64,000 bases of DNA from Eunapius fragilis (Eukaryota > Porifera > Demospongiae > Spongillida > Spongillidae): contig OY811981.1 of assembly GCA_963681505.1 (NCBI GenBank), positions 434,001 to 498,000 on the forward strand, in the 5' to 3' direction. Below the pieces are notes generated by a model that searched no databases, was not told the origin of the DNA, and was given only the letters and a program-made list of their open reading frames with translations. Below, one piece after another: positions 3,351 to 60,232 of this stretch; within the stretch, counting starts at the first letter, position 1; each line of letters opens with the position of its first letter. A program made the position numbers and the translations under genes.

Positions 3351-3554
3351 AAGTAGGTTCCCACCCATACATTCCTATGGGAAACCACCCATACATCTCT
3401 GTGGGAAATAGTGACTATCTTAGCATCGAGGTGTTGATGAGACATGCAATATGAGCAAACCACTGCACACATGGAAGATAGCAGTAACCATTCCTCTATC
3501 TGTTTTAAATGCCACCCCGAGCATACCTGCTTCGGTATGGGATACCCAAGCGAT

Positions 3555-15422: not shown

Positions 15423-15455
<33 letters not shown>

Positions 15456-17395: not shown

Positions 17396-17399
<4 letters not shown>

Positions 17400-17476
<77 letters not shown>
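17400..17476. repeat. GA dinucleotide microsatellite
   Basis: About 38 uninterrupted GA units between the two 1.36-kb copies. It generates a spurious alternating Arg-Glu frame. Confidence 0.97.
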
Positions 17477-21790: not shown

Positions 21791-21848
21791 GGCTGGTAGA
21801 ATAGGTAATAACACCTTATTTCCAATTGGAAAGGTTTAGAGGTGGGAT

Positions 21849-23378: not shown

Positions 23379-24704
23379 TGTGCACTAATAAGAATTGACC
23401 ATTTTCTCACAATTACAGCTAATATGAATTGAGCCTGTTGATAAATGATTATCCAACTACGCTGTGATCACCCTGGTAGGTCCTACCATCCGCCTGTCAT
23501 ATGTTCTTGCCTGTTGTACGTCGCCATTGAATATAAATGGTACTCACGTGAGCAGCCTAATTGCGATCTACCCAGATCAACCGATCAACAATAAACCTAC
23601 GCATTAACAAAACCGTTAAGATTCATAATTTCAAATGTATTAATGAATGTATATACTTGTGAATGTCTATGTCCGACTCTTCAGCTGTTAACCCTTTTTC
23701 TTGTTCTTGTTCACAGTCCGTGGGTGCTTGTGAATAAAGTTGAGAACTCGCTTGTTGAGCTAGTGGTTCATTTACAGGAGTGTCCAGACCATTCCTCAAA
23801 GGCTTCCCTGAGATACACTCTCACTTCAACACACAACCATTACTACCTCAACACTCTATCAGTACTTCTCTAGCTGAGAAACGTTTGGCTGTAAGAGAAG
23901 GGTTGGCTATTTTGGCTGGATGCCGACCGAGCTTACTAAACTGATCGAAGGACCAGCAAAGGTTGTGTGCATGTGTGTCACTGTGTTTGTGCATGTGTGT
24001 GGGGCAATGTGTACGTATGTTTGCATGTGTGTGTATTTGTGTGTGTGTGTGTGTGTGGAGAATGAGGGTGTTCAGGAGATATGGTGAGGGTGGGGGAGGG
24101 AGACAGAGAATTAGGAGTGAGGTGACTAGCAACATTGCCACACCTATGTCTGTCCCTCTTTCACCCCACCCCCCTCCCTTCATGTGATATGATTTCATCA
24201 TGTAACTGTTGAACAAACACACAAATTCAATATTTTATTTGTCTTATAACTTGTCCTTTTTTATGTACCACTTAATAACACATTCCATCCCTTTTCTCTT
24301 CTCCAGCCCCTATCTCAGAATATTAAAAATCTGGGGGTATCACGTTACTGACGCAGAATATGCTAGGGCCATTCTGCTGAGATGTCACCCATGCTCCCTT
24401 CACCTGCTCCAAGCCAAAGTCTTCAGGTTGAAAATATCAGTGGCCATCAGCCGTCCTTAGTATATGTGGTTGTCCAGCTTGGAGAGTCTGATAGAACTGA
24501 ATAACTGAATTATCACTAGCTATCACATGCTCTAGCTACTTGTAAAGAGATGTACTAGTTTGGAAAACACACTGGGGGTTGCACACAAATTTCGCCTCCC
24601 TCATATCACGTGATTAAACGTGACGGGCGTATCCGCCCCCACTTGTAACCTACAAGAAGCTCCATAACATGGTAAATAGAAACTATGCCAGGGCCATAAA
24701 TCCA
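23379..24704. repeat. Segmental duplication, copy 2
   Basis: Second copy of 20637-21790. It contains about 480 bp of sequence (23470-23950) absent from copy 1, without a convincing gene, and only one CCAGCTTGGAGAGTCTG repeat (near 24474). The 43-bp minisatellite lies exactly between the two copies. Confidence 0.88.
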
Positions 24705-29790: not shown

Positions 29791-29815
29791 TCAGGAGTCA
29801 TACATTGAGATACAT

Positions 29816-32130
29816 GACTCCTGCATGAGTCATACATACCACCATACTTGACTCCTGCAGGAGTCATACATGGAGATACTTGACTCCTGCAGGAGTCATA
29901 CAAAATGACATACTTGACTCCTTCAGGAGTCATGCATTGAGATACTTGACTCCTGCAGGAGTCATATATACCAACATACTTGACTCACACAGGAGTCATA
30001 CATTGAGATACTTGACTCCTGCAGGAGTCATGCATAGCAGCATACTTGACTCCTGCAGGAGTCATACATGGAGATACTTGACTCCTGCAGGAGTCATACA
30101 TAATGATATACTTGACTCCTGCAGGAGTCATGCATGGAGATACTTGACTCCTGCAGGAGTCATACATAATGACATACTTGACTCCTGCAGGAGTCATACA
30201 TCATGACATACTTGACTCCTGCAGGAGTCATGCATTGAGATACTTGACTCCTGCAGGAGTCATACATACCACCTTACTTGACTCCTACAGGAGTCATACA
30301 TTGAGATACATGACTCCTGCAGGAGTCATACATACCACTATACTTGACTCCTACAGGAGTCATACATTGAGATACATGACTCCTGCAGGAGTCATACATA
30401 CCGCTATACTTGACTCCTGCAGGAGTCTTACATGGAGATACTTGACTCCTGCAGGAGTCATTCATAATGACATACTTGACTCCTTCAGGAGTCATGCATT
30501 GAGATACTTGACTCCTGCAGGAGTCATATATACCAACATACTTGACTCCTACAGGAGTCATACATTGAGATACTTGACTCCTGCAGGAGTCATACATACC
30601 AACATACTTGACTCCTGCAGGAGTCATACATGGAGATACTGGACTCCTGCAGGAGTCATACATGATGGCATACTTGACTCCTGCAGGAGTCATGCATTGA
30701 GATAATTGACTCCTGCAGGAGTCATACATACCAACATAATTGACTACTGCAGGAGTCATACGTGGAGATACTTGACTCCTGCAGGAGTCATACATAATGA
30801 CATACTTGACTCCTGTAGGAGTCATACATAATGACTTACTTGACTCCTGCAGGAGTCATGCATTGAGATACTTGACTCCTGCAGGAGTCATACATACCAA
30901 CATACTTGACTTCTACAGGAGTCATGCATTGGGATACTTGACTCCAGCAGGTGTCATACATACTGACATCCTGGACTCCTGCAGGAGACATACATTGAGA
31001 TACTTGACTCCTGCAGGAGTCATACATACCAACATACTTGACTCCTGCAGGAGTCATGCATGGAGATACTTGACTCCTGCAGGAGTCATACATATGGATA
31101 TACTTGACTCCTGCAGGAGTCATGGATGGAGATACTTGACTCCTGCAGGAGTCATACATAATGACATACTTGACTCCTGCAGGAGTCATGCATTGAGATA
31201 ATTGACTCCTGCAGGAGTCATACATACCAATATACTTGACTAGTGCAGGAGTCATACATGGAGATACTTGACTCCTGCAGGAGTCATACATAATGACATA
31301 CTTGACTCCTGCAGGAGTCATACATCATGATATACTTGACTCCTGCAGGAGTCATGCATTGAGATACTTGAGTCCTGCAGGAGTCATACATACCACCATA
31401 CTTGACTCCTACAGGAGTCATGCATTGAGATACATGACTCCTGCAGGAGTCATACATACCACTATACTTGACTCCTGCAGGAGTCTTACATGGAGATACT
31501 TGACTCCTGCAGGAGTCATTCATAATGACATACTTGACTCCTTCAGGAGTCATGCATTGAGATACTTGACTCCTGCAGGAGTCATATATACCAACATACT
31601 TGACTCCTACAAAAGTCATACATTGAGATACTTGACTCCTGCAGGAGTCATACATACCAACATACTTGACTCCTGCAGGAGTCATACATGGAGATACTTG
31701 ACTCCTGCAGGAGTCATACATAATGACATACTTGACTCCTGCAGGAGTCATGCATTGAGATAATTGACTCCTGCAGGAGTCATACATACCAACATAATTG
31801 ACTACTGCAGGAGTCATACATGGAGATACTTGACTCCTGCAGGAGTCATACATAATGACATACTTGACTCCTGCAGGAGTCATACATAATGACATACTTG
31901 ACTCCTGCAGGAGTCATGCATTGAGATACTTGACTCCTGCAGGAGTCATACATACCAAAATACTTGACTTCTACAGGAGTCATGCATTGGGATAATTGAC
32001 TCCAGCAGGTGTCATACATACTGACATACTGGACTCCTGCAGGAGACATACATTGAGATACTTGACTCCTGCAGGAGTCATACATACCAACATACTTGAC
32101 TCCTGCAGGAGTCATGCATGGAGATACTTG
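29816..32130. repeat. Higher-order block of satellite B repeated at +4828 bp
   Basis: The block to about 32130 matches 34644-36960 with only a few differences, for example one TTGAGTCCTG change near 31368 and CTACAGGAGT versus CTACAAGAGT near 30352/35180. The match ends where the left copy reads AATGACAAAC and the right copy ATGGATATAC. Confidence 0.75.
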
Positions 32131-35034
32131 ACTCCTGCAGGAGTCATACATAATGACAAACTTGACTCCTGGAGGAGTCATACATTGAGATACTTGACTC
32201 CTGCAGGAGTCATGCATACCAGCATACTTGACTCCTGCAGGAGTCATACATGGAGATACTTGACTCCTGCAGGAGTCATACATAATGATATACTTGACTC
32301 CTGCAGGAGTCATGCATGGAGATACTTGACTCCTGCAGGAGTCATACATAATGACTTACTTGACACTTGCAGGAGTCATGCATTGAGATAATTGACTCCT
32401 GTAGGAGTCATACATACCAACATACTTGACTAGTGCAGGAGTCATACATGGAGATACTTGACTCCTGCAGGAGTCATACATAATGACATACTTGACTCCT
32501 GCAGGAGTCATACATCATGACATACTTGACTCCTGCAGGACTCATGCATTGAGATACTTGACTCCTGCAGGAGTCATACATACCACCTTACTTGACTCCT
32601 ACAGGAGTCATACATTGAGATACATGACTCCTGCAGGAGTCAAACATACCACTATACTTGACTCGTACAGGAGTCATACATTGAGATACATGACTCCTGC
32701 AGGAGTCATACATACCGCTGTACTTGACTCCTGCAGGAGTCTTACATGGAGATACTTGACTCCTGCAGGAGTCATTCATAATGACATACTTGACTCCTTC
32801 AGGAGTCATGCATTGAGATACTTGACTCCTGCAGGAGTCATATATACCAACATACTTGACTCCTACAGGAGTCATACATTGAGATACTTGACTCCTGCAG
32901 GAGTCATACATACCAACATACTTGACTCCTGCAGGAGTCATACATGGAGATACTGGACTCCTGCAGGAGTCATACATAATGGCATACTTGACTCCTGCAG
33001 GAGTCATGCATTGAGATAATTGACTCCTGCAGGAGTCATACATACCAACATAATTGACTACTGCAGGAGTCATACGTGGAGATACTTGATTCCTGCAGGA
33101 GTCATACATAATGACATACTTGACTCCTGCAGGAGTCATACATAATGACATACTTGACTCCTGCAGGAGTCATGCATTGAGATACTTGACTCCTGGAGGA
33201 GTCATACATACCACCATACTTGACTCCTACAGGAGTCATACATTGAGATACATGACTCCTGCAGGAGTCATACATACCACTATACTTGATTCCTGCAGGA
33301 GTCTTACCTGGAGATACTTGACTACTGCAGGAGTCATTCATAATGACATACTTGACTCCTTCAGGAGTCATGCATTGAGATACTTGACTCCTGCAGGAGT
33401 CATATATACCAACATACTTGACTCCTACAGGAGTCATACATTGAGATACTTGACTCCTGCAGGAGTCATACATACCAACATACTTGACTCCTGCAGGAGT
33501 CATAAATCATGACATACTTGACTCCTGCAGGAGTCATACATACCAACATACTTGACTCCTGCAGGAGTCATACATGGAGATACTGGACTCCTGCAGGAGT
33601 CATACATAATGGCATACTTGACTCCTGCAGGAGTCATGCATTGAGATAATTGACTCCGGCAGGAGTTATACATACCAACATAATTGACTACTGCAGGAGT
33701 CAGACGTGGAGATACTTGACTCCTGCAGGAGTCGTACATAATGACATACTTGACTCCTGCAGGAGTCATACATAATGACATACTTGACTCCTGCAGGAGT
33801 CATGCATTGAGATACTTGACTCCTGCAGGAGTCATACATACCAACATACTTGACTTCTACAGGAGTCATGCATTGGGATACTTGACTCCGGCAGGTGTCA
33901 TACATACTGACATACTGGACTCCTGCAGGAGACATACATTGAGATACTTGACTCCTGCAGGAGTCATACGTACCAACATACTTGACTCCTGCAGGAGTCA
34001 TGCATGGAGATACTTGACTCCTGCAGGAGTCATACATATGGATATACTTGACTCCTGCAGGAGTCATGGATGAAGATACTTGACTCCTGCAGGAGTCATA
34101 CATAAAACCATACTTGAATCCTGCAGGAGTCTTACATGGTGATACTTGACTCCTGCAGGAGTCATACATAATGACATACTTGACTCCTTCAGGAGTCATG
34201 CATTGAGTTATTTGACTCCTGCAGGAGTCATACATACCACCATACTTGACTCCTGCAGGAGTCATGCATTGAGATACTTGACTCCTGCAGGAGTCATACA
34301 TACGAACATACTTGACTCCTACAGGAGTCATACATTGAGATACAAGACTCCTGCAGGAGTCATACATACCACCATACTTGACTCCTGCAGGAGTCTTACA
34401 TGGAGATACTTGACTCCTGCAGGAGTCATACATATGGATATTCTTGACTCCTGCAGGAGTCAAGCATTGAGATACTTGACTCCTGCGGGAGTCATACATC
34501 ATGACATACTTGACTCCTGCAGGAGACGTACATAATGTCGTACTTGACTCCTGCAGGAGTCATGCATTGAGATACTAGACTCCTGCAGGAGTCATACATA
34601 CCAACATACTTGACTCCTACAGGAGTCATACATTGAGATACATGACTCCTGCATGAGTCATACATACCACCATACTTGACTCCTGCAGGAGTCATACATG
34701 GAGATACTTGACTCCTGCAGGAGTCATACAAAATGACATACTTGACTCCTTCAGGAGTCATGCATTGAGATACTTGACTCCTGCAGGAGTCATATATACC
34801 AACATACTTGACTCACACAGGAGTCATACATTGAGATACTTGACTCCTGCAGGAGTCATGCATAGCAGCATACTTGACTCCTGCAGGAGTCATACATGGA
34901 GATACTTGACTCCTGCAGGAGTCATACATAATGATATACTTGACTCCTGCAGGAGTCATGCATGGAGATACTTGACTCCTGCAGGAGTCATACATAATGA
35001 CATACTTGACTCCTGCAGGAGTCATACATCATGA

Positions 35035-38000
35035 CATACTTGACTCCTGCAGGAGTCATGCATTGAGATACTTGACTCCTGCAGGAGTCATACATACCAC
35101 CTTACTTGACTCCTACAGGAGTCATACATTGAGATACATGACTCCTGCAGGAGTCATACATACCACTATACTTGACTCCTACAAGAGTCATACATTGAGA
35201 TACATGACTCCTGCAGGAGTCATACATACCGCTATACTTGACTCCTGCAGGAGTCTTACATGGAGATACTTGACTCCTGCAGGAGTCATTCATAATGACA
35301 TACTTGACTCCTTCAGGAGTCATGCATTGAGATACTTGACTCCTGCAGGAGTCATATATACCAACATACTTGACTCCTACAGGAGTCATACATTGAGATA
35401 CTTGACTCCTGCAGGAGTCATACATACCAACATACTTGACTCCTGCAGGAGTCATACATGGAGATACTGGACTCCTGCAGGAGTCATACATGATGGCATA
35501 CTTGACTCCTGCAGGAGTCATGCATTGAGATAATTGACTCCTGCAGGAGTCATACATACCAACATAATTGACTACTGCAGGAGTCATACGTGGAGATACT
35601 TGACTCCTGCAGGAGTCATACATAATGACATACTTGACTCCTGTAGGAGTCATACATAATGACTTACTTGACTCCTGCAGGAGTCATGCATTGAGATACT
35701 TGACTCCTGCAGGAGTCATACATACCAACATACTTGACTTCTACAGGAGTCATGCATTGGGATACTTGACTCCAGCAGGTGTCATACATACTGACATCCT
35801 GGACTCCTGCAGGAGACATACATTGAGATACTTGACTCCTGCAGGAGTCATACATACCAACATACTTGACTCCTGCAGGAGTCATGCATGGAGATACTTG
35901 ACTCCTGCAGGAGTCATACATATGGATATACTTGACTCCTGCAGGAGTCATGGATGGAGATACTTGACTCCTGCAGGAGTCATACATAATGACATACTTG
36001 ACTCCTGCAGGAGTCATGCATTGAGATAATTGACTCCTGCAGGAGTCATACATACCAATATACTTGACTAGTGCAGGAGTCATACATGGAGATACTTGAC
36101 TCCTGCAGGAGTCATACATAATGACATACTTGACTCCTGCAGGAGTCATACATCATGATATACTTGACTCCTGCAGGAGTCATGCATTGAGATACTTGAC
36201 TCCTGCAGGAGTCATACATACCACCATACTTGACTCCTACAGGAGTCATGCATTGAGATACATGACTCCTGCAGGAGTCATACATACCACTATACTTGAC
36301 TCCTGCAGGAGTCTTACATGGAGATACTTGACTCCTGCAGGAGTCATTCATAATGACATACTTGACTCCTTCAGGAGTCATGCATTGAGATACTTGACTC
36401 CTGCAGGAGTCATATATACCAACATACTTGACTCCTACAAAAGTCATACATTGAGATACTTGACTCCTGCAGGAGTCATACATACCAACATACTTGACTC
36501 CTGCAGGAGTCATACATGGAGATACTTGACTCCTGCAGGAGTCATACATAATGACATACTTGACTCCTGCAGGAGTCATGCATTGAGATAATTGACTCCT
36601 GCAGGAGTCATACATACCAACATAATTGACTACTGCAGGAGTCATACATGGAGATACTTGACTCCTGCAGGAGTCATACATAATGACATACTTGACTCCT
36701 GCAGGAGTCATACATAATGACATACTTGACTCCTGCAGGAGTCATGCATTGAGATACTTGACTCCTGCAGGAGTCATACATACCAAAATACTTGACTTCT
36801 ACAGGAGTCATGCATTGGGATAATTGACTCCAGCAGGTGTCATACATACTGACATACTGGACTCCTGCAGGAGACATACATTGAGATACTTGACTCCTGC
36901 AGGAGTCATACATACCAACATACTTGACTCCTGCAGGAGTCATGCATGGAGATACTTGACTCCTGCAGGAGTCATACATATGGATATACTTGACTCCTGC
37001 AGGAGTCATGGATGGAGATACTTGACTCCTGCAGGAGTCATACATAAAACCATACTTGAATCCTGCAGGAGTCTTACATGGTGATACTTGACTCCTGCAG
37101 GAGTCATACATAATGACATACTTGACTCATTCAGGAGTCATGCATTGAGTTACTTGACTCCTGCAGGAGTCATACATACCACCATTCTTGACTCCTGCAG
37201 GAGTCAAGCATTGAGATACTTGACTCCTGCGGGAGTCATACATCATGACATACTTGACTCCTGCAGGAGACGTACATAATGTCGTACTTGACTCCTGCAG
37301 GAGTCATGCATTGAGATACTTGACTCCTGCAGGAGTCATACAAACCAACATACTTGACTCCTACAGGAGTCATACATTGAGATACATGACTCCTGCAGGA
37401 GTCATACATACCACCATACTTGACTCCTGCAGGAGTCATACAAGGAGATACTTGACTCCTGCAGGAGTCATACATAATGACATACTTGACTCCTTCAGGA
37501 GTCATGCATTGAGATACTTGACTCCTGCAGGAGTCATATATACCAACATACTTGACTCACACAGGAGTCATACATTGAGATACTTGACTCCTGCAGGAGT
37601 CATGCATACCAGCATACTTGACTCCTGCAGGAGTCATGCATGGAGATACTTGACTCCTGCAGGAGTCATACATAATGATATACTTGACTCCTGCAGGAGT
37701 CATGCATGGAGATACTTGACTCCTGCAGGAGTCATACATAATGACATACTTGACTCTTGCAGGAGTCATGCATTGAGATAATTGACTCCTGCAGGAGTCA
37801 TACATACCAACATACTTGACTAGTGCAGGAGTCATACATGGAGATACTTGACTCCTGCAGGAGTCATACATAATGACATACTTGACTTTTGCAGGAGTCA
37901 TACATCATGACATACTTGACTCCTGCAGGAGTCATGCATTGAGATACTTGACTCCTGCAGGAGTCATACATACCACCTTACTTGACTCCTACAGGAGTCA

Positions 38001-41000
38001 TACATTGAGATACATGACTCCTGCAGGAGTCATACATACCACTATACTTGACTCCTACAGGAGTCATTCATTGAGATACATGACTCCTGCAGGAGTCATA
38101 CATACCGCTATACTTGACTCCTGCAGGAGTCTTACATAGAGATACTTGACTCCTGCAGGAGTCATTCATAATGACATACTTGACTCCTTCAGGAGTCATG
38201 CATTGAGATATTTGACTCCTGCAGGAGTCATATATACCAACATACTTGACTCCTACAGGAGTCATACATTGAGATACTTGACTCCTGCAGGAGTCATACA
38301 TACCAACATACTTGACTCCTGCATGAGTCATACATGGAGATACTGGACTCCTGCAGGAGTCATACATGATGGCATACTTGACTCCTGCAGGAGTCATGCA
38401 TTGAGATAATTGACTCCTGCAGGAGTCATACATACCAACATAATTGACTACTGCAGGAGTCATACGTGGAGATACTTGACTCCTGCAGGAGTCATACATA
38501 ATGACATACTTGACTCCTGCAGGAGTCATACATAATGACATACTTGACTCCTGCAGGAGTCATGCATTGAGATACTTGACTCCTGCAGGAGTCATACATA
38601 CCAACATACTTGACTTCTACAGGAGTCATGCATTGGGATACTTGACTCCAGCAGGTGTCATACATACTGACATACTGGACTCCTGCAGGAGACATACATT
38701 GAGATACTTGACTCCTGCAGGAGTCATACATACCAACATACTTGACTCCTGCAGGAGTCATGCATGGAGATACTTGACTCCTGCAGGAGTCATACATATG
38801 GATATACTTGACTCCTGCAGGAGTCATGGATGGAGATACTTGACTCCTGCAGGAGTCATACATAATGACATACTTGACTCCTGCAGGAGTCATGCATTGA
38901 GATGATTGACTCCTGCAGGAGTCATACATACCAATATACTTGACTAGTGCAGGAGTCATACATGGAGATACTTGACTCCTGCAGGAGTCATACATAATGA
39001 CATACTTGACTCCTGCAGGAGTCATACATCATGATATACTTGACTCCTGCAGGAGTCATGCATTGAGATACTTGACTCCTGCAGGAGTCATACATACCAC
39101 CTTACTTGACTCCTACAGGAGTCATACATTGAGATACATGACTCCTGCAGGAGTCATACATACCACTATACTTGACTCCTACAAGAGTCATACATTGAGA
39201 TACATGACTCCTGCAGGAGTCATACATACCGCTATACTTGACTCCTGCAGGAGTCTTACATGGAGATACTTGACTCCTGCAGGAGTCATTCATAATGACA
39301 TACTTGACTCCTTCAGGAGTCATGCATTGAGATACTTGACTCCTGCAGGAGTCATATATACCAACATACTTGACTCCTACAGGAGTCATACATTGAGATA
39401 CTTGACTCCTGCAGGAGTCATACATACCAACATACTTGACTCCTGCAGGAGTCATACATGGAGATACTGGACTCCTGCAGGAGTCATACATGATGGCATA
39501 CTTGACTCCTGCAGGAGTCATGCATTGAGATAATTGACTCCTGCAGGAGTCATACATACCAACATAATTGACTACTGCAGGAGTCATACGTGGAGATACT
39601 TGACTCCTGCAGGAGTCATACATAATGACATACTTGACTCCTGTAGGAGTCATACATAATGACTTACTTGACTCCTGCAGGAGTCATGCATTGAGATACT
39701 TGACTCCTGCAGGAGTCATACATACCAACATACTTGACTTCTACAGGAGTCATGCATTGGGATACTTGACTCCAGCAGGTGTCATACATACTGACATCCT
39801 GGACTCCTGCAGGAGACATACATTGAGATACTTGACTCCTGCAGGAGTCATACATACCAACATACTTGACTCCTGCAGGAGTCATGCATGGAGATACTTG
39901 ACTCCTGCAGGAGTCATACATATGGATATACTTGACTCCTGCAGGAGTCATGGATGGAGATACTTGACTCCTGCAGGAGTCATACATAATGACATACTTG
40001 ACTCCTGCAGGAGTCATGCATTGAGATAATTGACTCCTGCAGGAGTCATACATACCAATATACTTGACTAGTGCAGGAGTCATACATGGAGATACTTGAC
40101 TCCTGCAGGAGTCATACATAATGACATACTTGACTCCTGCAGGAGTCATACATCATGATATACTTGACTCCTGCAGGAGTCATGCATTGAGATACTTGAC
40201 TCCTGCAGGAGTCATACATACCACCATACTTGACTCCTACAGGAGTCATGCATTGAGATACATGACTCCTGCAGGAGTCATACATACCACTATACTTGAC
40301 TCCTGCAGGAGTCTTACATGGAGATACTTGACTCCTGCAGGAGTCATTCATAATGACATACTTGACTCCTTCAGGAGTCATGCATTGAGATACTTGACTC
40401 CTGCAGGAGTCATATATACCAACATACTTGACTCCTACAAAAGTCATACATTGAGATACTTGACTCCTGCAGGAGTCATACATACCAACATACTTGACTC
40501 CTGCAGGAGTCATACATGGAGATACTTGACTCCTGCAGGAGTCATACATAATGACATACTTGACTCCTGCAGGAGTCATGCATTGAGATAATTGACTCCT
40601 GCAGGAGTCATACATACCAACATAATTGACTACTGCAGGAGTCATACATGGAGATACTTGACTCCTGCAGGAGTCATACATAATGACATACTTGACTCCT
40701 GCAGGAGTCATACATAATGACATACTTGACTCCTGCAGGAGTCATGCATTGAGATACTTGACTCCTGCAGGAGTCATACATACCAAAATACTTGACTTCT
40801 ACAGGAGTCATGCATTGGGATAATTGACTCCAGCAGGTGTCATACATACTGACATACTGGACTCCTGCAGGAGACATACATTGAGATACTTGACTCCTGC
40901 AGGAGTCATACATACCAACATACTTGACTCCTGCAGGAGTCATGCATGGAGATACTTGACTCCTGCAGGAGTCATACATATGGATATACTTGACTCCTGC

Positions 41001-43034
41001 AGGAGTCATGGATGGAGATACTTGACTCCTGCAGGAGTCATACATAAAACCATACTTGAATCCTGCAGGAGTCTTACATGGTGATACTTGACTCCTGCAG
41101 GAGTCATACATAATGACATACTTGACTCATTCAGGAGTCATGCATTGAGTTACTTGACTCCTGCAGGAGTCATACATACCACCATTCTTGACTCCTGCAG
41201 GAGTCAAGCATTGAGATACTTGACTCCTGCGGGAGTCATACATCATGACATACTTGACTCCTGCAGGAGACGTACATAATGTCGTACTTGACTCCTGCAG
41301 GAGTCATGCATTGAGATACTTGACTCCTGCAGGAGTCATACAAACCAACATACTTGACTCCTACAGGAGTCATACATTGAGATACATGACTCCTGCAGGA
41401 GTCATACATACCACCATACTTGACTCCTGCAGGAGTCATACAAGGAGATACTTGACTCCTGCAGGAGTCATACATAATGACATACTTGACTCCTTCAGGA
41501 GTCATGCATTGAGATACTTGACTCCTGCAGGAGTCATATATACCAACATACTTGACTCACACAGGAGTCATACATTGAGATACTTGACTCCTGCAGGAGT
41601 CATGCATACCAGCATACTTGACTCCTGCAGGAGTCATGCATGGAGATACTTGACTCCTGCAGGAGTCATACATAATGATATACTTGACTCCTGCAGGAGT
41701 CATGCATGGAGATACTTGACTCCTGCAGGAGTCATACATAATGACATACTTGACTCTTGCAGGAGTCATGCATTGAGATAATTGACTCCTGCAGGAGTCA
41801 TACATACCAACATACTTGACTAGTGCAGGAGTCATACATGGAGATACTTGACTCCTGCAGGAGTCATACATAATGACATACTTGACTTTTGCAGGAGTCA
41901 TACATCATGACATACTTGACTCCTGCAGGAGTCATGCATTGAGATACTTGACTCCTGCAGGAGTCATACATACCACCTTACTTGACTCCTACAGGAGTCA
42001 TACATTGAGATACATGACTCCTGCAGGAGTCATACATACCACTATACTTGACTCCTACAGGAGTCATTCATTGAGATACATGACTCCTGCAGGAGTCATA
42101 CATACCGCTATACTTGACTCCTGCAGGAGTCTTACATAGAGATACTTGACTCCTGCAGGAGTCATTCATAATGACATACTTGACTCCTTCAGGAGTCATG
42201 CATTGAGATATTTGACTCCTGCAGGAGTCATATATACCAACATACTTGACTCCTACAGGAGTCATACATTGAGATACTTGACTCCTGCAGGAGTCATACA
42301 TACCAACATACTTGACTCCTGCATGAGTCATACATGGAGATACTGGACTCCTGCAGGAGTCATACATGATGGCATACTTGACTCCTGCAGGAGTCATGCA
42401 TTGAGATAATTGACTCCTGCAGGAGTCATACATACCAACATAATTGACTACTGCAGGAGTCATACGTGGAGATACTTGACTCCTGCAGGAGTCATACATA
42501 ATGACATACTTGACTCCTGCAGGAGTCATACATAATGACATACTTGACTCCTGCAGGAGTCATGCATTGAGATACTTGACTCCTGCAGGAGTCATACATA
42601 CCAACATACTTGACTTCTACAGGAGTCATGCATTGGGATACTTGACTCCAGCAGGTGTCATACATACTGACATACTGGACTCCTGCAGGAGACATACATT
42701 GAGATACTTGACTCCTGCAGGAGTCATACATACCAACATACTTGACTCCTGCAGGAGTCATGCATGGAGATACTTGACTCCTGCAGGAGTCATACATATG
42801 GATATACTTGACTCCTGCAGGAGTCATGGATGGAGATACTTGACTCCTGCAGGAGTCATACATAATGACATACTTGACTCCTGCAGGAGTCATGCATTGA
42901 GATGATTGACTCCTGCAGGAGTCATACATACCAATATACTTGACTAGTGCAGGAGTCATACATGGAGATACTTGACTCCTGCAGGAGTCATACATAATGA
43001 CATACTTGACTCCTGCAGGAGTCATACATCATGA
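35035..43034. repeat. Two tandem 4000-bp higher-order units, apparently identical
   Basis: Sequence 35035-39034 is repeated as 39035-43034. Private variants match one for one at the 4000-bp offset: CTACAAGAGTC near 35190/39190, CTACAAAAGTC near 36436/40436 and GAGATGATTG near 38901/42901. I saw no difference. The left boundary is marked by ATGACATACT at 35031 versus ATGATATACT at 39031; after about 43101 the copies part. It is either a very recent exchange or an assembly duplication. Confidence 0.85.
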
Positions 43035-49000: not shown

Positions 49001-50150
49001 GAGTCATACATAATGACATACTTGACTCCTGCAGGAGTCATGCATAATGACATACTTGACTCCTGCAGGAGTCATGCATTGAGATACTTGACTCCTGCAG
49101 GAGTCATACATACCAACATACTTGACTTCTACAGGAGTCATGCATTGGGATACTTGACTCCAGCAGGTGTCATACATACTGACATACTGGACTCCTGCAG
49201 GAGACATACATTGAGATACTTGACTCCTGCAGGAGTCATACATACCAACATACTTGACTCCTGCAGGAGTCATGCATGGAGATACTTGACTCCTGCAGGA
49301 GTCATACATATGGATATACTTGACTCCTGCAGGAGTCATGGATGGAGATACTTGACTCCTGCAGGAGTCATACATAAAACCATACTTGAATCCTGCAGGA
49401 GTCTTACATGGTGATACTTGACTCCTGCAGGAGTCATACATAATGACATACTTGACTCCTTCAGGAGTCATGCATTGAGTTACTTGACTCCTGCAGGAGT
49501 CATACATACCACCATACTTGACTCCTGCAGGAGTCATGCATTGAGATACTTGACTCCTGCAGGAGTCATACATACGAACATACTTGACTCCTACAGGAGT
49601 CATACATTGAGATACAAGACTCCTGCAGGAGTCATACATACCACCATACTTGACTCCTGCAGGAGTCTTACATGGAGATACTTGACTCCTGCAGGAGTCA
49701 TACATATGGATATTCTTGACTCCTGCAGGAGTCAAGCATAGAGATACTTGACTCCTGCGGGAGTCATACATCATGACATACTTGACTCCTGCAGGAGACG
49801 TACATAATGTCGTACTTGACTCCTGCAGGAGTCATGCATTGAGATACTTGACTCCTGCAGGAGTCATACATACCAACATACTTGACTCCTACAGGAGTCA
49901 TACATTGAGATACATGACTCCTGCAGGAGTCATACATACCACCATACTTGACTTCTGCAGGAGTCATACATGGAGATACTTGACTCCTGCAGGAGTCATA
50001 CATAATGACATACTTGACTCCTTCAGGAGTCATGCATTGAGATACTTGACTCCTGCAGGAGTCATATATACCAACATACTTGACTCACACAGGAGTCATA
50101 CATTGAGATACTTGACTCCTGCAGGAGTCATGCATACCAGCATACTTGAC
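42988..50150. repeat. Related higher-order blocks of satellite B at offsets 2380 and 5454
   Basis: Blocks at about 42988-44700 and 48442-50150 match at 5454 bp, including the private GTCATGCATAATGACATAC. Blocks near 43550-44320 and 45930-46700 match at 2380 bp. Variable spacing of otherwise matching blocks indicates unequal exchange at many registers. Confidence 0.7.
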
Positions 50151-50745
50151 TCCTGCAGGAGTCATACATGGAGATACTTGACTCCTGCAGGAGTCATACA
50201 TAATGATATACTTGACTCCTGCAGGAGTCATGCATGGAGATACTTGACTCCTGCAGGAGTCATACATAATGACATACTTGACACTTGCAGGAGTCATGCA
50301 TTGAGATAATTGACTCCTGCAGGAGTCATACATACCAACATACTTGACTAGTGCAGGAGTCATACATGGAGATACTTGAGTCCTGCAGGATTCATACATA
50401 ATGACATACTTGACTCCTGCAGGAGTCATACATCATGACATACTTGACTCCTGCAGGAGTCATGCATTGAGATACTTGACTCCTGCAGGAGTCATACATA
50501 CCACCTTACTTGACTCCTACAGGAGTCATACATTGAGATACATGACTCCTGCAGGAGTCATGCATACCACTATACTTGACTCCTACAGGAGTCATACATT
50601 GAGATACATGACTCCTGCAGGAGTCATACATACCGCTGTACTTGACTCCTGCAGGAGTCTTACATGGAGATACTTGACTCCTGCAGGAGTCATTCATAAT
50701 GACATACTTGACTCCTTCAGGAGTCATGCATTGAGATACTTGACT

Positions 50746-50900
50746 CACTATTCTACGAATTGGATATACGATAGTGTATATTTTGCGGATATGTGAAAAA
50801 TACACATGATATACACATGTGTGTACGCAAGGTATACCCATTGGTATATTTTGCGGATAGAACCAGAATCTCATGTCGTATATTTTGCGTATTCTCAAAT
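50746..50900. repeat. Left terminal/subterminal repeat of the CACTA-like element
   Basis: Starts CACTATTCTACGAA. GTATATTTTGCGGAT or a close variant occurs near 50776, 50845 and 50880. GGTATACCCATTGGTATAT at 50831 resembles the inverted GGTATACCATTAATATACC of the right end. Confidence 0.7.
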
Positions 50901-51663
50901 AATCACGTGCGCTGATGATGGGTTCTTAATTTGCGCCTTCCGCACACCAATTGTGTACTTCTACCGCATACTTTGCTCCGTTACATCAGTTGGATACGTC
51001 TTCCGAATTTGTTCATTGTATACTAGCTTGTATCCATTTGTGTATGTATGATCATATTAATATAGCTTTATATAATTTCAATCAATAAATAAAAACCGCA
51101 ATAGCCAAAACATATACAATGCGTTTTAAAAACGTCCAAGTCTCTCGAACCATCCTAGCATGAACAGTTGGAGAAGTGGAAGAGTGGAGTAGCGGTCCTT
51201 CACATCGCTGTTGTAGGGGTGGTGCTTCAAGTTGCTTCGAGCATCCAGAGCGTCAATCGATTCACTTAGCCTATCAGAGCGCTATGACGTCGATGGACCA
51301 CCGCTGTCCTCTTCGAAGGCTTAACCGCCACCTTGCCTTTCTTCTTCTGTCAGCATACGACACCTTTTAGCAAAACCTACAGTAGGAAAAGAGCATCACG
51401 CGACATAGATAGGACTTACGCTGTTGAGTTGAATAGCCTTCAATTACTCTTAGTTCGCTTGTACCTAGTAAAAATATGGCTGAAGATAGCATTATGAAGA
51501 CTCTACCTTTATGTGGCGGCAATAGCGTGAAGGTCTTTATCGAACTCTGCTATACATAGTCGTGATTGCGTAAGAAAAAAGCGCAAAAATCTCTTACCCT
51601 TCATCACGCCGAACTGAAGTGCTGATGATCTTCCTAAACCTTTCTGACTTCTACAATTCTGAC
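50901..51663. other. CACTA-like element interior, nothing recognised
   Basis: AT-rich left part, then about 550 bp of more balanced composition (51130-51660) with several GT/AG-like sites and short frames on both strands, none convincing. Confidence 0.4.
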
Positions 51664-51855
51664 CTATATTTCAATGGGGGCTTCCGCTATCTGCTTGCGA
51701 TGCAATCCAGCTTCATCGATGTGTCTTAGTATATCAGCGACGACTTGCGGATGCAGCTATTCCATGGCCGGTGAACTTACCTGGAATCCAAGTTCACGAA
51801 CACTGCGCTGTCCTGGCAATTTGCAAGGCGAGGCATCGTCAAAAAGTCTTGGCAT
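51664..51855 (-). pseudogene. Possible transposase-like exon remnant in the CACTA-like element
   Basis: Minus strand. ATG at 51855 opens a 25-codon exon ending in a perfect CAG/GTAAGT donor (51781/51780), encoding LPGQRSVRELGFQ at its end. Just downstream a frame at 51756-51664 encodes VVADILRHIDEAGLHRKQIA and then stops. The two helical segments together recall helix-turn-helix DNA-binding domains of transposases. The only AG close to the second segment would give a 24-bp intron, which is too short; longer alternatives break the frame. I treat it as a decayed piece, family unknown. Confidence 0.28.
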
Positions 51856-52725
51856 AGTCAAAATCATAACAAAATTTACGAACTATGATGTACTTTTGGA
51901 CTAACCTGACTTCCGTCATCCAGTTCTTTCTGGTGTGGCTGCCTGATATCCCTACAACCTCGATCGCCATTTTACTAATATGCTCCGCGTGGTAATACTT
52001 GGCGCCAAATTAATACTTGCAATTAATTTAATAAGTTAATAAACGTAGTCTACATTATGACATATGTCTTTTCAAACTTCACCAGGTATATCACGTACGT
52101 TTCAGCTGGGGCATGTGATAAGCACTAATATTCACAGTAATCCACCTGGAACCTCTTCTGAGGAAACGCGTACCTAAACATTCTGGGTTTGCTTAGCTAT
52201 TGTGTACAAGAAGCAGTATGATTAGCATGCATCGTGTTATTTGTGTTTTGAATGGTAAGACGCTCGGTAGCCTGTCGACACTGTGAAGTGTATTCCAGTG
52301 TCACGTAACGTCATTGAGCAGCTCAGCTTTCCTATGGTACAAGGTGGGGGCGTGGCATAATAACAAATACTTCTCTCGCCGTCTACATGTATATTAGTTC
52401 CGTCAGATCACTCCTCAAAATGCTTTCCATGCACCGTCCAATGTTTGTGAGCCAACGCAAGTACATGTATGTTGTATGCACCCGTACTAAGCTTGTACAT
52501 GATCGACCCGCTAATAGTATAGGTAATAATAACTGAACAAACATTAATGTGCATGCATTGCATATTATTACTATTTTCATGAATCCTACAACTACATCAT
52601 ATAGGATGCAAACCTTGAGGTGTTGCTGTAACTTTGCCGGCATTAATTCCAAATTCGTTACATGCAAAATTGAAAAGAATTGAATGCACGCGTGTTCTTG
52701 ATCTTATATGATTCAATCCGATGTG
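51856..52725. other. CACTA-like element interior, no gene seen
   Basis: AT-rich sequence with TTAAT-rich stretches near 52000-52060. A hydrophobic 94-codon minus-strand frame at 52383-52667 lacks an ATG start and splice context; I consider it chance. Confidence 0.4.
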
Positions 52726-53160
52726 CCATGCGAGAGAGCTGTGATAATCGTCACCCAAGTAGAAAGTCATTCAGAACTGTTGCCCCTCATGTTTATGCAT
52801 GCATATCACATGGTATAGGCATTGAAACATGCTTGGTTGGGATGTTAATCAGGCATTCAGGTCTTACTCCTGGGCACCCGAGCCCCCTTTACTTGTGAGA
52901 GAGCTGTGATTATCGTCACCCATGTAGAAAGCCATTCAGAACTGTTGCCCCTATGTTTATACATACCTATTACATGATATAGCCATTGAAACATGATTGG
53001 TTGGGATGTTCATGTCTTATTAACCTGAGCCCCTACTTTTGAGAGAGCTATGATATATATGACTCAAGTAGGAAGTCATATAAAACTGTTGCCCCTGTGT
53101 TTCTTCATACTTACCACATACAATAGGCACTGCAACATGTTCAGTACAGCCCTTATTCCT
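52726..53160. repeat. ~165-bp diverged tandem repeat, 3 copies
   Basis: GAGAGAGCTGTGATAATCGT (52731), GAGAGAGCTGTGATTATCGT (52897) and a more diverged copy at 53041 each continue to AACTGTTGCCCC and then CATTGAAACATG-like sequence. Spacing is about 166 and 144 bp. Confidence 0.85.
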
Positions 53161-53637
53161 GGGAACCAGAGCCCCCTTCCTTTTCTTTGTTAGCTGGCAC
53201 CAGAACATGCATGAACTATGATCCTATCTGTACGTGCACTGGAGAGCAAAGTTCACTCGTGCCGTCATGATGTATATGTTCGTTCAAATAGCACTTCATA
53301 CCCACTTGGGAGAATCACTCGTGTTAAAACTGGTCATCAAATCACCCCAGGCAAGTTCCAAATCAATGAGTCATGATCCTCATCATTTAAAAGCAAAATG
53401 TTACATGTACAAAGAAAAGCATCAGTAAATGTCCTTTAACTCTTTAAGGCCCTAAGTAGAGCTTGCTGCTGAGGACAACAGTTTGGCCGCCTGCAGAAAT
53501 AAGATCCGGAATGCATGTGCGAGAGTAAGTGTACATGGGTGAATGGACACGTACATGTACATGTATAGACACACCTCTTCATAACGCACACATGGACCAT
53601 ATATCTCATCATTAAGTACACTCAATCACTAATACCT
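53161..53637. other. CACTA-like element interior between its two internal arrays
   Basis: Unique sequence. A 64-codon plus-strand frame at 53234-53428 and a 61-codon minus frame at 53436-53621 are present, but neither has family similarity or splice support. Confidence 0.4.
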
Positions 53638-56225
53638 GATGAGGCCACGCCCGTAAAGGTCACACACCTCCCTGGAGGCCAGTATGTGTGTTACATCTGC
53701 TGATTTTAAAGCTCACAGGACATGTAACACCACAGCTACTCTAAAGAATGCACAAGTCAAAATGTCACTACACGCATTAAATATTAGCATTTATCCGTTT
53801 ACCTGATGAGGCCACGCCCATGAAGGTGACAAACCTCCCAAGAGGCCAGTATGTGTGTTACACCTGCTCAGTTTGAAGCTCTCAGGACATGTAACACCAC
53901 AGCTACTCTAAAGAATGCACAAGTCAAAACGTCACTACACGCATTAAATATTAGCATTTATCGGTTTACCTGATGAGGCCACGCCCATGAAGGTGACAAA
54001 CCTCCCAAGAGGCCAGTATGTGTGTTACACCTGCTCAGTTTGAAGCTCTCAGGACATGTAACACCACAGCTACTCTAAAGAATGCACAAGTCAAAACGTC
54101 ACTACACGCATTAAATATTAGCATTTATCCGTTTACCTGATGAGGCCACGCCCATGAAGGTAACATGCCTCCCAAGAGGCCAGTATGTGTGTTACACCTG
54201 CTCAGTTTGAAGCTCTCAGGACATGTAACACCACAGCTACTCTAAAGAATGCACAAGTCAAAACGTCACTACACGCATTAAATATTAGCATTTATCGGTT
54301 TACCTGATGAGGCCACGCCCATGAAGGTGACAAACCTCCCAAGAGGCCAATATGTGTGTTACACCTGCTCAGTTTGAAGCTCTCAGGACATGTAACACCA
54401 CAGCTACTCTAAAGAATGCACAAGTCAAAACGTCACTACACGCATTAAATATTAGCATTTATCGGTTTACCTGATGAGGCCACGCCCATGAAGGTGACAA
54501 ACCTCCCAAGAGGCCAGTATGTGTGTTACACCTGCTCACTTTAAAGCTCACAGGACATGTAACACCACAGCTACTCTAAAGAATGCACAAGTCAAAACGT
54601 CACTACACGCATTAAATATTAGCATTTATCCGTTTACCTGATGAGGCCACGCCCATGAAGGTAACATGCCTCCCAAGAGGCCAGTATGTGTGTTACACCT
54701 GCTCAGTTTGAAGCTCTCAGGACATGTAACACCACAGCTACTCTAAAGAATGCACAAGTCAAAACGTCACTACACGCATTAAATATAAGCATTTATCGGT
54801 TTACCTGATGAGGCCACGCCCATGAAGGTGACAAACCTCCCAAGAGGCCAATATGTGTGTTACACCTGCTCAGTTTGAAGCTCTCACAACATGTAACACC
54901 ACAGCTACTCTAAAGAATGCACAAGTCAAAACGTCACTACACGCATTAAATATTAGCATTTATCGGTTTACCTGATGAGGCCACGCCCATGAAGGTGACA
55001 AACCTCCCAAGAGGCCAGTATGTGTGTTACACCTGCTCACTTTAAAGCTCACAGGACATGTAACACCACAGCTACTCTAAAGAATGCACAAGTCAAAACG
55101 TCACTACACGCATTAAATATTAGCATTTATCCGTTTACCTGATGAGGCCACGCCCATGAAGGTGACAAACCTCCCAAGAGGCCAGTATGTGTGTTACACC
55201 TGCTCAGTTTGAAGCTCTCAGGACATGTAACACCACAGCTACTCTAAAGAATGCACAAGTCAAAACGTCACTACACGCATTAAATATTAGCATTTATCCG
55301 TTTACCTGATGAGGCCACGCCCATGAAGATGACAAACCTCCCAAGAGGCCAGTATGTGTGTTACACCTGCTCAGTTTGAAGCTCTCAGGACATGTAACAC
55401 CACAGCTACTCTAAAGAATGCACAAGTCAAAACGTCACTACACGCATTAAATATTAGCATTTATCCGTTTACCTGATGAGGCCACGCCCATGAAGGTGAC
55501 AAACCTCCCAAGAGGCCAGTATGTGTGTTACACCTGCTAAGTTTGAAGCTCTCAGGACATGTAACACCACAGCTACTCTAAAGAATGCACAAGTCAAAAA
55601 ACGTCACTACACGCATTAAATATTAGCATTTATCCGTTTACCTGATGAGGCCACGCCCATGAAGGTAACATGCCTCCCAAGAGGCCAGTATGTGTGTTAC
55701 ACCTGCTCAGTTTGAAGCTCTCAGGACATGTAACACCACAGCTACTCTATAGAATGCACAAGTCAAAACGTCACTACACGCATTAAATATTAGCATTTAT
55801 CGGTTTACCTGATGAGGCCACGCCCATGAAGGTGACAAACCTCCCAAGAGGCCAATATGTGTGTTACACCTGCTCAGTTTGAAGCTCTCAGGACATGTAA
55901 CACCACAGCTACTCTAAAGAATGCACAAGTCAAAACGTCACTACACGCATTAAATATTAGCATTTATCGGTTTACCTGATGAGGCCACGCCCATGAAGGT
56001 AACATGCCTCCCAAGAGGCCAGTATGTGTGTTACACCTGCTCAGTTTGAAGCTCTCAGGACATGTAACACCACAGCTACTCTAAAGAATGCACAAGTCAA
56101 AACGTCACTACACGCATTAAATATTAGGTTTACCTCATGAGGCCACGCCCATGAAGGTGACAAACCTCCCAAGAGGCCAATATGTGTGTTACACCTGCTC
56201 AGTTTGAAGCTCACAGGACATGTAA
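53638..56225. repeat. 167-bp minisatellite inside the CACTA-like element, ~15.5 copies
   Basis: GATGAGGCCACGCCCATGAA starts at 53638 (variant), 53805, 53972, 54139 and onward with a 167-bp period. One unit near 55600 has two extra A's and the last (about 56136) is shortened by about 10 bp. Diagnostic changes (ATTTATCC/ATTTATCGG, GGTGACAAAC/GGTAACATGC, CCAGTATG/CCAATATG) occur in a partly repeating order, for instance 54139-54640 against 54640-55141. No frame is maintained. Confidence 0.95.
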
Positions 56226-56819
56226 CATTTGCTGCTTTGAAGCTAGCTATTCCAAAGAATGCCCATGTCCACAGTCATGAAAGTCATACACTTTTTCAAA
56301 TGTGTTATAGCTGTAATGGTAATGAAAACAAATGTAATAAATGGAGCACCATTACTTTCATACGCTCTATAGGTTAACTGTGCTTCAACCGTACCGCTGA
56401 TCACAGCAAAGTTGGCCATCAAGTTGGCCTTCCATCTTTGCCATGATGAAAAACAGTATCGCTGATACGGTATCGACGTCCATAGAGATGAAAGGCAGTG
56501 ATCACCACCTGCGATAACGTCAGGAGTGTTCGCCACCCCCCTGTTTATTCTACAGAGAACGTTACTTGCGAGAAACTATGTATGGTACTAAGGGTTGTTT
56601 TAAACTCATATAAATCAAGCAGACTAGACGTACCGAATTTTAGAGAAGGAGGTGCTCAAAACGGGTTGCTCTGCAGCTATGTGAGATCAGAGATCATATT
56701 CGATGCTCTTGGATTCGAAATAATATTTTCAAAGGTATTAAATATAATAAGCTTCGAAAATGTTTATCCAAATTAACATTTAGAATTTACGGTATTAGCG
56801 TATACTTTAAGAGTCAGGT
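56226..56819. other. Right interior of the CACTA-like element
   Basis: Unique sequence. A 97-codon minus-strand frame at 56243-56536 begins with GTG rather than ATG and has an inner CAG/GTGGTG donor-like site; no family recognised, probably not a gene. Confidence 0.35.
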
Positions 56820-56978
56820 GCGTATACCACGATGGTTAGTGAATACAATTGACACCTGCGGATTCTTGGAATATACGTATGCGTATTTTTGAAATATAAC
56901 CACACACGGTATATTAATGGTATACCAGAAATATACGCATAAATATACACCACTGTATACTACTTTCGTTGCACAGTG
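56820..56978. repeat. Right terminal/subterminal repeat of the CACTA-like element
   Basis: Ends TTCGTTGCACAGTG. ATATACGCATAAATATACAC (56931-56950) is the inverted counterpart of the left GTGTATATTTTGCGGAT. ACGGTATATTAATGG lies just inside. Confidence 0.7.
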
Positions 56979-59900
56979 ACTCCTGCAGGAGTCATATATA
57001 CCAACATACTTGACTCCTACAGGAGTCATACATTGAGATACTTGACTCCTGCAGGAGTCATACATACCAACATACTTGACTCCTGCAGGAGTCATACATG
57101 GAGATACTGGACTCCTGCAGGAGTCATACATAATGGCATACTTGACTCCTGCAGGAGTCATGCATTGAGATAATTGACTCCTGCAGGAGTCATACATACC
57201 AACATAATTGACTACTGCAGGAGTCATACGTGGAGATACTTGACTCCTGCAGGAGTCATACATAATGACATACTTGACTCCTGCAGGAGTCATACATAAT
57301 GACATACTTGACTCCTGCAGGAGTCATGCATTGAGATACTTGACTCCTGCAGGAGTCATACATACCACCATACTTGACTCCTACAGGAGTCATACATTGA
57401 GATACATGACTCCTGCAGGAGTCATACATACCACTATACTTGACTCCTGCAGGAGTCTTACATGGAGATACTTGACTCCTGCAGGAGTCATTCATAATGA
57501 CATACTTGACTCCTTCAGGAGTCATGCATTGAGATACTTGACTCCTGCAGGAGTCATATATACCAACATACTTGACTCCTACAGGAGTCATACATTGAGA
57601 TACTTGACTCCTGCAGGAGTCATACATACCAACATACTTGACTCCTGCAGGAGTCATACATGGAGATACTTGACTCCTGCAGGAGTCATACATAATGACA
57701 TACTTGACTCCTGCAGGAGTCATGCATTGAGATAATTGACTCCTGCAGGAGTCATACATACCAACATAATTGACTACTGCAGGAGTCATACATTGAGATA
57801 CATGACTCCTGCAGGAGTCATACATACCACCATACTTGACTCCTGCAGGAGTCATACATGGAGATACTTGACTCCTGCAGGAGTCATACATAATGACATA
57901 CTTGACTCCTTCAGGAGTCATGCATTGAGATACTTGACTCCTGCAGGAGTCATATATACCAACATACTTGACTCACACAGGAGTCATACATTGAGATACT
58001 TGACTCCTGCAGGAGTCATGCATACCAGCATACTTGACTCCTGCAGGAGTCATACATGGAGATACTTGACTCCTGCAGGAGTCATACATAATGATATACT
58101 TGACTCCTGCAGGAGTCATGCATGGAGATACTTGACTCCTGCAGGAGTCATACATAATGACATACTTGACACTTGCAGGAGTCATGCATTGAGATAATTG
58201 ACTCCTGCAGGAGTCATACATACCAACATACTTGACTAGTGCAGGAGTCATACATGGAGATACTTGACTCCTGCAGGAGTCATACATAATGACATACTTG
58301 ACTCCTGCAGGAGTCATACATCATGACATACTTGACTCCTGCAGGAGTCATGCATTGAGATACTTGACTCCTGCAGGAGTCATACATACCACCTTACTTG
58401 ACTCCTACAGGAGTCATACATTGAGATACATGACTCCTGCAGGAGTCATACATACCACTATACTTGACTCCTACAGGAGTCATACATTGAGATACATGAC
58501 TCCTGCAGGAGTCATACATACCGCTGTACTTGACTCCTGCAGGAGTCTTACATGGAGATACTTGACTCCTGCAGGAGTCATTCATAATGACATACTTGAC
58601 TCCTTCAGGAGTCATGCATTGAGATACTTGACTCCTGCAGGAGTCATATATACCAACATACTTGACTCCTACAGGAGTCATACATTGAGATACTTGACTC
58701 CTGCAGGAGTCATACATACCAACATACTTGACTCCTGCAGGAGTCATACATGGAGATACTGGACTCCTGCAGGAGTCATACATAATGGCATACTTGACTC
58801 CTGCAGGAGTCATGCATTGAGATAATTGACTCCTGCAGGAGTCATACATACCAACATAATTGACTACTGCAGGAGTCATACGTGGAGATACTTGACTCCT
58901 GCAGGAGTCATACATAATGACATACTTGACTCCTGCAGGAGTCATACATAATGACATACTTGACTCCTGCAGGAGTCATGCATTGAGATACTTGACTCCT
59001 GCAGGAGTCATACATACCACCATACTTGACTCCTACAGGAGTCATACATTGAGATACATGACTCCTGCAGGAGTCATACATACCACTATACTTGACTCCT
59101 GCAGGAGTCTTACATGGAGATACTTGACTCCTGCAGGAGTCATTCATAATGACATACTTGACTCCTTCAGGAGTCATGCATTGAGATACTTGACTCCTGC
59201 AGGAGTCATATATACCAACATACTTGACTCCTACAGGAGTCATACATTGAGATACTTGACTCCTGCAGGAGTCATACATACCAACATACTTGACTCCTGC
59301 AGGAGTCATACATGGAGATACTTGACTCCTGCAGGAGTCATACATAATGACATACTTGACTCCTGCAGGAGTCATGCATTGAGATAATTGACTCCTGCAG
59401 GAGTCATACATACCAACATAATTGACTACTGCAGGAGTCATACATTGGGATACTTGACTCCTGCAGGAGTCATACATAATGACATACTTGACTCCTGCTG
59501 GAGTCATGCATGGAGATACTTGACTCCTGCAGGAGTCATACATTATGACATACTTGACTCCTGCAGGAGTCATGCATTGAGATAATTGACTCCTGCAGGA
59601 GTCATACATACCAACATAATTGACTACTGCAGGAGTCATACATGGAGATACTTGACTCCTGCAGGAGTCATACATAATGACATACTTGACTCCTGCAGGA
59701 GTCATACATAATGACATACTTGACTCCTGCAGGAGTCATGCATTGAGATACTTGACTCCTGCAGGAGTCATACATACCAACATACTTGACTTCTACAGGA
59801 GTCATGCATTGGGATACTTGACTCCAGCAGGTGTCATACATACTGACATACTGGACTCCTGCAGGAGACATACATTGAGATACTTGACTCCTGCAGGAGT

Positions 59901-60216
59901 CATACATACCAACATACTTGACTCCTGCAGGAGTCATGCATGGAGATACTTGACTCCTGCAGGAGTCATACATATGGATATACTTGACTCCTGCAGGAGT
60001 CGTGCATAGAGATATTTGACTCCTGCAGGAGTCATACATCATGACATACTTGACTCCTGCAGGAGTCATGCATTGAGATACTTGACTCCTGCAGGAGTCA
60101 TACATCATGACATACTTGACTCCTGCAGGAGTCATGCATTGAGATACTTGACTCCTGCAGGTGTCATACATACTGACATACATGACTCCTGCAAGAGTCA
60201 TACATTGAGATACTTC
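56979..60216. repeat. Satellite B (right part)
   Basis: Same palindrome array as 29793-50745, about 98 units, resuming in the exact register lost at the insertion. It contains its own 1652-bp tandem duplication (57265-57735 and 58917-59387 match without visible difference). The last units are degenerate (GACTCCTGCAAGAGTC, then CACTCCTAACC). Confidence 0.96.
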
Positions 60217-60232
60217 ACTCCTAACCGCGAAC

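Follow-up and report, generated by a model that had tools for sequence, protein, structure and literature searches.

The 64,000-nucleotide stretch of the freshwater sponge Eunapius fragilis analyzed here (assembly GCA_963681505.1, contig OY811981.1, positions 434,001 to 498,000; hereafter the window) carries a long array of an 18-bp palindrome, TGACTCCTGCAGGAGTCA, that we consider very likely to be ordinary satellite DNA. Under this reading, an ancestral unit was amplified stepwise, its copies spread with a bias toward chromosome ends, and the palindrome is common to all arrays by descent from shared founders. The arrays are long, head-to-tail, and non-coding, and they are homogenized with higher-order cassettes, as is typical of satellites. 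The unit is unusually tidy, yet nothing about it calls for a new category, and function is unproven.

At a tolerance of four mismatches, the window contains 731 palindrome units: 466 perfect, 166 with one mismatch, 85 with two, and 14 with three. The preliminary description, made from the letters alone, spoke of perfect palindromes; this is accurate for 64% of units (466/731), while the remainder have one to three mismatches. The 32/34-bp spacing that it reported was confirmed, as palindrome-to-palindrome steps are 34 bp (n = 386) or 32 bp (n = 343) save for a single step of 6,268 bp that spans an insert. The span it gave, 29793..60216, does contain the array (24,200 bases), but in two blocks separated by 6.2 kb of foreign DNA (50747-56976). 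Block 1 (29793..50746, forward strand) features 633 palindromes at up to four mismatches with alternating 14- and 16-bp spacers; block 2 (56977..60222, forward strand) features 98 palindromes of the same unit, and its longest alignments to block 1 are 83-84% identical. A representative short unit (29849..29880, forward strand) joins the palindrome to the 14-bp spacer TACATGGAGATACT for a total of 32 bp, and a representative long unit (29881..29914, forward strand) joins it to the 16-bp spacer TACAAAATGACATACT for 34 bp. Because the consensus spacers, TACATTGAGATACT and TACATACTGACATACT, are only two inserted letters and one substitution apart, a single unit was probably the source of both. The array itself is no product of chance: the 18-mer has 17,690 perfect copies in the genome, whereas the same letters read backwards have none. 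Long open frames that run across the array recur with the repeat unit, and one frame scanned from 12473-17400 matched no Pfam family. Likewise, no Rfam family was matched in the window at gathering scores. Nineteen weak Rfam matches in 53500-57200, mostly to microRNA families and lying on palindromes, are expected of a palindromic repeat; the best scored 33 bits, where the gathering score is 79.

Higher-order structure is pronounced. Neighboring short (S) and long (L) units in the window form 343 SL, 343 LS, and 41 LL pairs but no SS pair. Successive LL slips are 15, 17, or 19 units (496, 562, or 628 bp) apart in 31 of 40 cases, and autocorrelation peaks at 66, 562, 628, 1124, and 496 bp. At a larger scale, near-identical stretches recur within block 1 at lags of 4000, 4828, and 5454. 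The clearest is a recent duplication (34906..43229, forward strand) in which 34906-39229 is repeated 4,000 bp on at no less than 98.5% identity in 500-base windows; from 35036, 1,000 of 1,000 bases are identical. Alternating units, cassettes of 496, 562, and 628 bp, and kilobase duplications together make up the pattern expected from unequal exchange.

We propose the following history. An ancestral unit of about 32 bp, comprised of the 18-bp palindrome and a spacer of about 14 bp, would have given rise to a 34-bp sister through a small change in the spacer. The resulting 66-bp pair would then have been amplified into cassettes of 15, 17, and 19 units and these, in turn, into kilobase blocks, with unequal exchange and segmental duplication as the probable engine. 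Copies would have spread over many chromosomes, preferentially toward their ends. Such an array would require no product and, at most, may be subject to a slow sequence-specific filter, such as a protein binding this twofold-symmetric site. There was no sign that the symmetry is upheld for its own sake.

The satellite is dispersed across the genome (218.9 Mb in 24 contigs, referred to as C1, C2, and so on; the window lies in C11, which is 8.78 Mb long). Extrapolating from the proportion of the window's units that are perfect, the satellite would comprise about 27,700 units, or 0.9 Mb and 0.4% of the genome. Loci were defined from the rarer patterns, for which all matches were available, with places merged at 300 kb: an odd spacer (24 places), a window variant (6), a 15-bp spacer (33 forward and 28 reverse), a 17-bp spacer (8), and palindromes with a TTAA (5) or TATA (46) center. 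The outcome was 25 loci distributed over 14 contigs, such that at least 14 of the 24 carry the satellite. Eighteen of these loci are no more than 1 Mb from a contig end, a zone that makes up 22% of the genome (p = 1.3e-7). When matches listed for the commoner patterns, which cover the first contigs only, are added, there are at least 29 loci, 18 of 29 near ends (p = 3.7e-6). In both statistics, loci on one contig are not independent, and the window and the C1 loci were sampled by choice. The satellite is thus enriched near contig ends in the manner of subtelomeric repeats. TTAGGG repeats were present at two of the six contig ends read (the start of C8 and the end of C7) and absent from the other four, including the start of C11, so not every contig end need correspond to a chromosome end.

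These positions also bear on the possibility that the array is centromeric DNA. An enrichment of short dyads has been proposed as a feature of centromeres (PMC9070824), and the preliminary description raised a dedicated centromeric protein. Nevertheless, several loci can occupy one contig and 18 of 25 lie near contig ends, an arrangement that, judged by position, does not agree with a single centromeric block per chromosome. We therefore regard a centromeric identity as highly improbable. Assembly artefact is more improbable still. A 200-base run of N at 12473-12672 does mark the region as hard to assemble, and assembled array lengths may be wrong; however, arrays occur on at least 14 contigs, their flanks are unmatched between contigs, and they carry private mutations. 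When 19 flank pieces from seven loci (95-1,455 bases) were cross-compared, matches were confined to one pair of inner edges in the C1 array, which have an insert in common. Carriage of the satellite by a transposable element was rejected on this basis, as flanks common to the arrays were not found among those pieces. Pairs of palindromes 14-16 bp apart had no matches in viral contigs and none in prokaryote contigs.

Two loci stand out in form. Many of the matches listed fall, on both strands, in about 186 kb of C2 (15926592-16112112) that is away from a contig end. At the other extreme, a single unit is present at C1:634491, and the next among the matches listed on that contig is at 4.79 Mb. 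By eye, this lone unit is flanked on each side by a foldback-like element of about 280 bp, the two being related, and it may be a relic or a seed.

The question of whether the palindrome is protected was addressed in 18 arrays, using distinct units with 14-bp (779) or 16-bp (740) spacers. Per-position agreement averages 0.94-0.95 for palindrome positions and 0.86 for spacer positions. Much of this gap is due to a few polymorphic spacer positions (0.46-0.71); other spacer positions reach 0.95-0.98. We separated private variants, present in one distinct unit of an array, from spread variants, present in at least 10% and three units within an array. Private variants are equally frequent in both parts of the unit. 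For short units, there are 0.0137 and 0.0138 per site in the palindromes on either side and 0.0123 in the spacer; for long units, the values are 0.0135 and 0.0126 versus 0.0126. These counts include any sequencing errors, which would hit palindrome and spacer alike, and the palindrome-to-spacer ratio ranges from 0.64 to 1.92 across the 16 scorable arrays. Variants spread in one or two arrays are also evenly distributed (17 of the 108 changes possible in the palindrome versus 13 of the 90 possible in the spacer; p = 0.54), and variants confined to three or fewer arrays show no difference between palindrome and spacer, on few counts.

Several observations weigh against descent with end-biased spread as a complete account. 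First, 7 of 25 loci (11 of 29 among the matches listed) are away from contig ends, at 4.8, 5.5, 17.4, and 23.6 Mb of C1; 6.3, 15.6, and 15.9-16.4 Mb of C2; 12.1 Mb of C3; 1.7 Mb of C5; 4.3 Mb of C9; and 1.5 Mb of C12. Second, among variants spread in three or more arrays, the palindrome accounts for 5 of 108 possible changes and the spacer for 26 of 90 (p = 2e-6). The ratio of spread to private variants (at least three units) is likewise lower in the palindrome, both in short units (76:187 versus 155:120 in the spacer, p = 1.5e-10) and in long units (60:182 versus 132:153, p = 3e-7), and spread variants per site are fewer in the palindrome in all 16 scorable arrays (ratio 0.06-0.83). Third, the palindrome consensus is identical in 18 of 18 arrays for short units and 16 of 16 for long units; the consensus of each spacer varies at three positions between arrays. 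Pure founder ancestry fits these data only if the founders varied in their spacers and not in their palindromes, which itself needs a reason.

A first alternative is that the palindrome is the twofold-symmetric site of a sequence-specific protein, comparable to the CENP-B box of alpha satellite, with broken sites slowly removed while spacers drift. Per possible change, old shared variants are about six times rarer in the palindrome and private variants are equal, as weak purifying selection would leave them, and the single consensus across arrays is in keeping with it. On the other hand, no depletion is apparent among variants spread in one or two arrays or, on few counts, in three or fewer; symmetric position pairs do not differ significantly (p = 0.37); spread variants lack arm-arm correlation; and a palindrome with an asymmetric center grew to 982 copies. 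We consider a protein site unlikely. Its more specific form, a CENP-B-box-like system near chromosome ends in which a dedicated candidate protein with a weak preference would keep the 18-letter consensus as an independent motif, is quite unlikely. Overall, the palindrome is old and uniform, and its present-day protection is undetectable. Its persistence is most likely due to descent of the arrays from founders that already had it in common; between founders alike in palindrome but already diverse in spacer and a slow, weak filter, the former is somewhat more likely. The statement that the palindrome is far better conserved than the spacers thus applies to old shared variants but not to private mutations. 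Similarly, equal substitution rates, which the preliminary description named as an outcome at odds with its view, were found for recent mutations and not for old shared variants.

A second explanation is that the palindrome works as a structure, namely a cruciform, hairpin, or hairpin transcript, and is kept by compensating changes. Within one strand, a palindrome can fold on itself at -5.2 kcal/mol, with a stem of 7 bp closed by the loop TGCA, and pairing between two neighbors extends over 18 bp at -21 kcal/mol (z -9). In addition, when both-sided changes were first counted, in the C1 array only, 12 of 19 were complementary, where a third are expected. Across 1,575 distinct contexts, however, both-sided changes at the eight symmetric pairs outside the center number 43 versus 31.7 expected (1.36). 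Non-symmetric pairs exceed expectation to the same degree (838 versus 626.6; 1.34), and only 15 of the 43 are complementary, which is the chance share of a third. The check suggested earlier, that the arms change together, found a small excess at the central pair only (19 both-sided changes versus 10.6 expected). Thirteen of these 19 are complementary, but six of the 13 come from the C1 array, and adjacent letters co-change in general (174 versus 65.6 expected). A symmetric-looking mismatch profile of the two arms vanished once private and spread variants were separated.

The center is the loop of the fold rather than its stem. Among sampled contexts with intact arms, TGCA occurs 650 times, TACA/TGTA 75, TGAA/TTCA 36, TATA 7, TTAA 3, and TAAA/TTTA 5. 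Single changes would predict about 2 TATA, 0.5 TTAA, and 2 TAAA/TTTA, such that symmetric doubles modestly exceed expectation, although the numbers are small, and so does the asymmetric TAAA. Genome-wide, TTAA has 5 copies (rough expectation 9) and TATA 46, whereas asymmetric TTCA/TGAA has 982, and asymmetric centers outnumber symmetric replacements more than 10-fold. With arms at background and an asymmetric center this common, hairpin or cruciform upkeep is not supported (the preliminary description counted cruciforms and repeated hairpin transcripts among the possibilities); pairing of adjacent palindromes is not kept by evolution. Together with the lack of Rfam matches at gathering scores in the window, these results make a structural role most improbable.

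A third explanation holds that the palindrome is a hot spot for recombination or insertion that drives the amplification of the satellite. The insert at 50747..56976 does break the array within a palindrome and is flanked on both sides by TGACTC, apparently a 6-bp target duplication; its two ends share short, weak matches only. Of 12 switches of spacer orientation listed within some arrays, nine are at a palindrome with two or fewer mismatches, although several are doubtful. There are precedents for palindrome-linked junctions in the bivalve satellite phBglII400 and in the PSR work in Nasonia cited with it (PMC5139131). Yet, as scored by eye, 11 of 19 array edges lie in the palindrome (three at its first letter), four at its boundary, and four in the spacer; since the palindrome occupies 18 of 33 bases (55%), the edges are not clearly enriched in it, and those belonging to a single insert do not count as independent. 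The scan for switches looks from spacer to spacer and so favors palindromes, and some switches look like misread mutant spacers. We view a hot spot as distinctly unlikely.

The inserts have features of their own. The insert in the window includes 15.6 copies of a 167-bp tandem repeat (53633-56227) with 96% matches. A hammerhead was suspected in this repeat from its CTGATGAG and rejected, as none was listed in Rfam scans of the window or of 53500-57200. Insertions in the C1 array (L036-L038, C1:4794000-4823999) have, by eye, inverted ends of the form CATGTCCAG...GGACAT; two of them are alike at 84-91% over several stretches and are probably a DNA transposon.

Other identities proposed for the array were also considered. 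The preliminary description placed all palindromes on one face of the DNA, but at 10.5 bp per turn successive palindromes are offset by 17 or 86 degrees depending on the step, which adds up to 103 degrees for each pair of steps, and a run of 10 palindromes has a coherence of 0.21. The idea therefore fails at that pitch; at 11.0 bp per turn, coherence is 0.94. It also read the half-sites as targets of basic leucine zipper (bZIP) factors. The AP-1/GCN4 motif is TGASTCA, the TGACTCC of the unit is one letter off this motif, and TGASTCA itself is found 15 times over the 24.2 kb of array; bZIP recognition would thus be a weak reading of the letters. An array of clustered regularly interspaced short palindromic repeats (CRISPR) was rejected, given that the spacers are not unique (one is found 64 times, and the 343 short units in the window comprise 53 distinct units) and that the genome has histone genes and is therefore eukaryotic.

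In line with the statement that no satellite with this unit has been described, a single search of open-access papers did not find the 18-mer; subscription literature was mostly outside the search. Among the closest likenesses, by description rather than sequence, is the 72-bp satellite of Palorus subdepressus (review PMC8122249). It too has a short unit, in which 22-bp inverted-repeat units alternate with another element and two classes form 144-bp dimers, but it is pericentric on all chromosomes and makes up 20% of the genome, whereas the sponge satellite is dispersed, end-biased, and about 0.4% by extrapolation. In Meloidogyne satellites with the CENP-B box-like Box 1 (PMC3694981), a 17-bp motif is nearly fixed while the rest diverges, and higher-order repeats are present, as they are here. 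Box 1, unlike the sponge unit, is not described as a palindrome in that paper, whose text lacks the word. Some Meloidogyne monomer transitions occur exactly at the box, whereas array edges here show no clear excess in the palindrome. The bivalve phBglII400 shares palindromes within the monomer and abrupt junctions (PMC5139131), yet all 16 of its breakpoints fall in palindromes, 13 in the longer one, compared to the near-chance 11 of 19 by eye in the sponge. Finally, macro-dyad satellites of Tribolium madens are likewise inverted in organization (PMC13081366), but their symmetry extends over tens of kilobases at the putative (peri)centromere rather than 18 bp per unit.

Other repeats accompany the arrays. 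A 43-bp tandem repeat is present in the window outside the palindrome array (21847-23381) and in the C1 array region (L037 107-915), with copies mostly 77-80% alike in long alignments, such that the two satellites co-occur on two contigs. Positions 1-12472 of the window harbor another satellite with 185/208-bp units that ends at the 200-base N run; a 24-bp part of it, CCCATA..TATGGG, is an imperfect inverted repeat. Further perfect palindromes of 14-46 bp were observed near arrays and a histone H3 gene (window 60233; L036 7019; L070 16; L008 537). The 23.5 kb of non-array DNA in the window contains 10 palindromes of at least 14 bp, compared to about 1.6 expected from base composition, and some are TGCA runs. 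To the right of the short C5 array, L069 from about position 1300 resembles, by eye, the start of a long terminal repeat (LTR) retroelement, with a gag-like frame.

In summary, thousands of copies of one unit on many chromosomes make it possible to count separately the mutations that are new, those that have spread in an array, and those fixed long ago, and the three answers differ. Better conservation of the palindrome is a property of its old history without detectable present protection, which serves as a warning on inferring function from a satellite consensus. The palindrome also offers one well-defined site at which to ask whether satellites can be policed by a protein.

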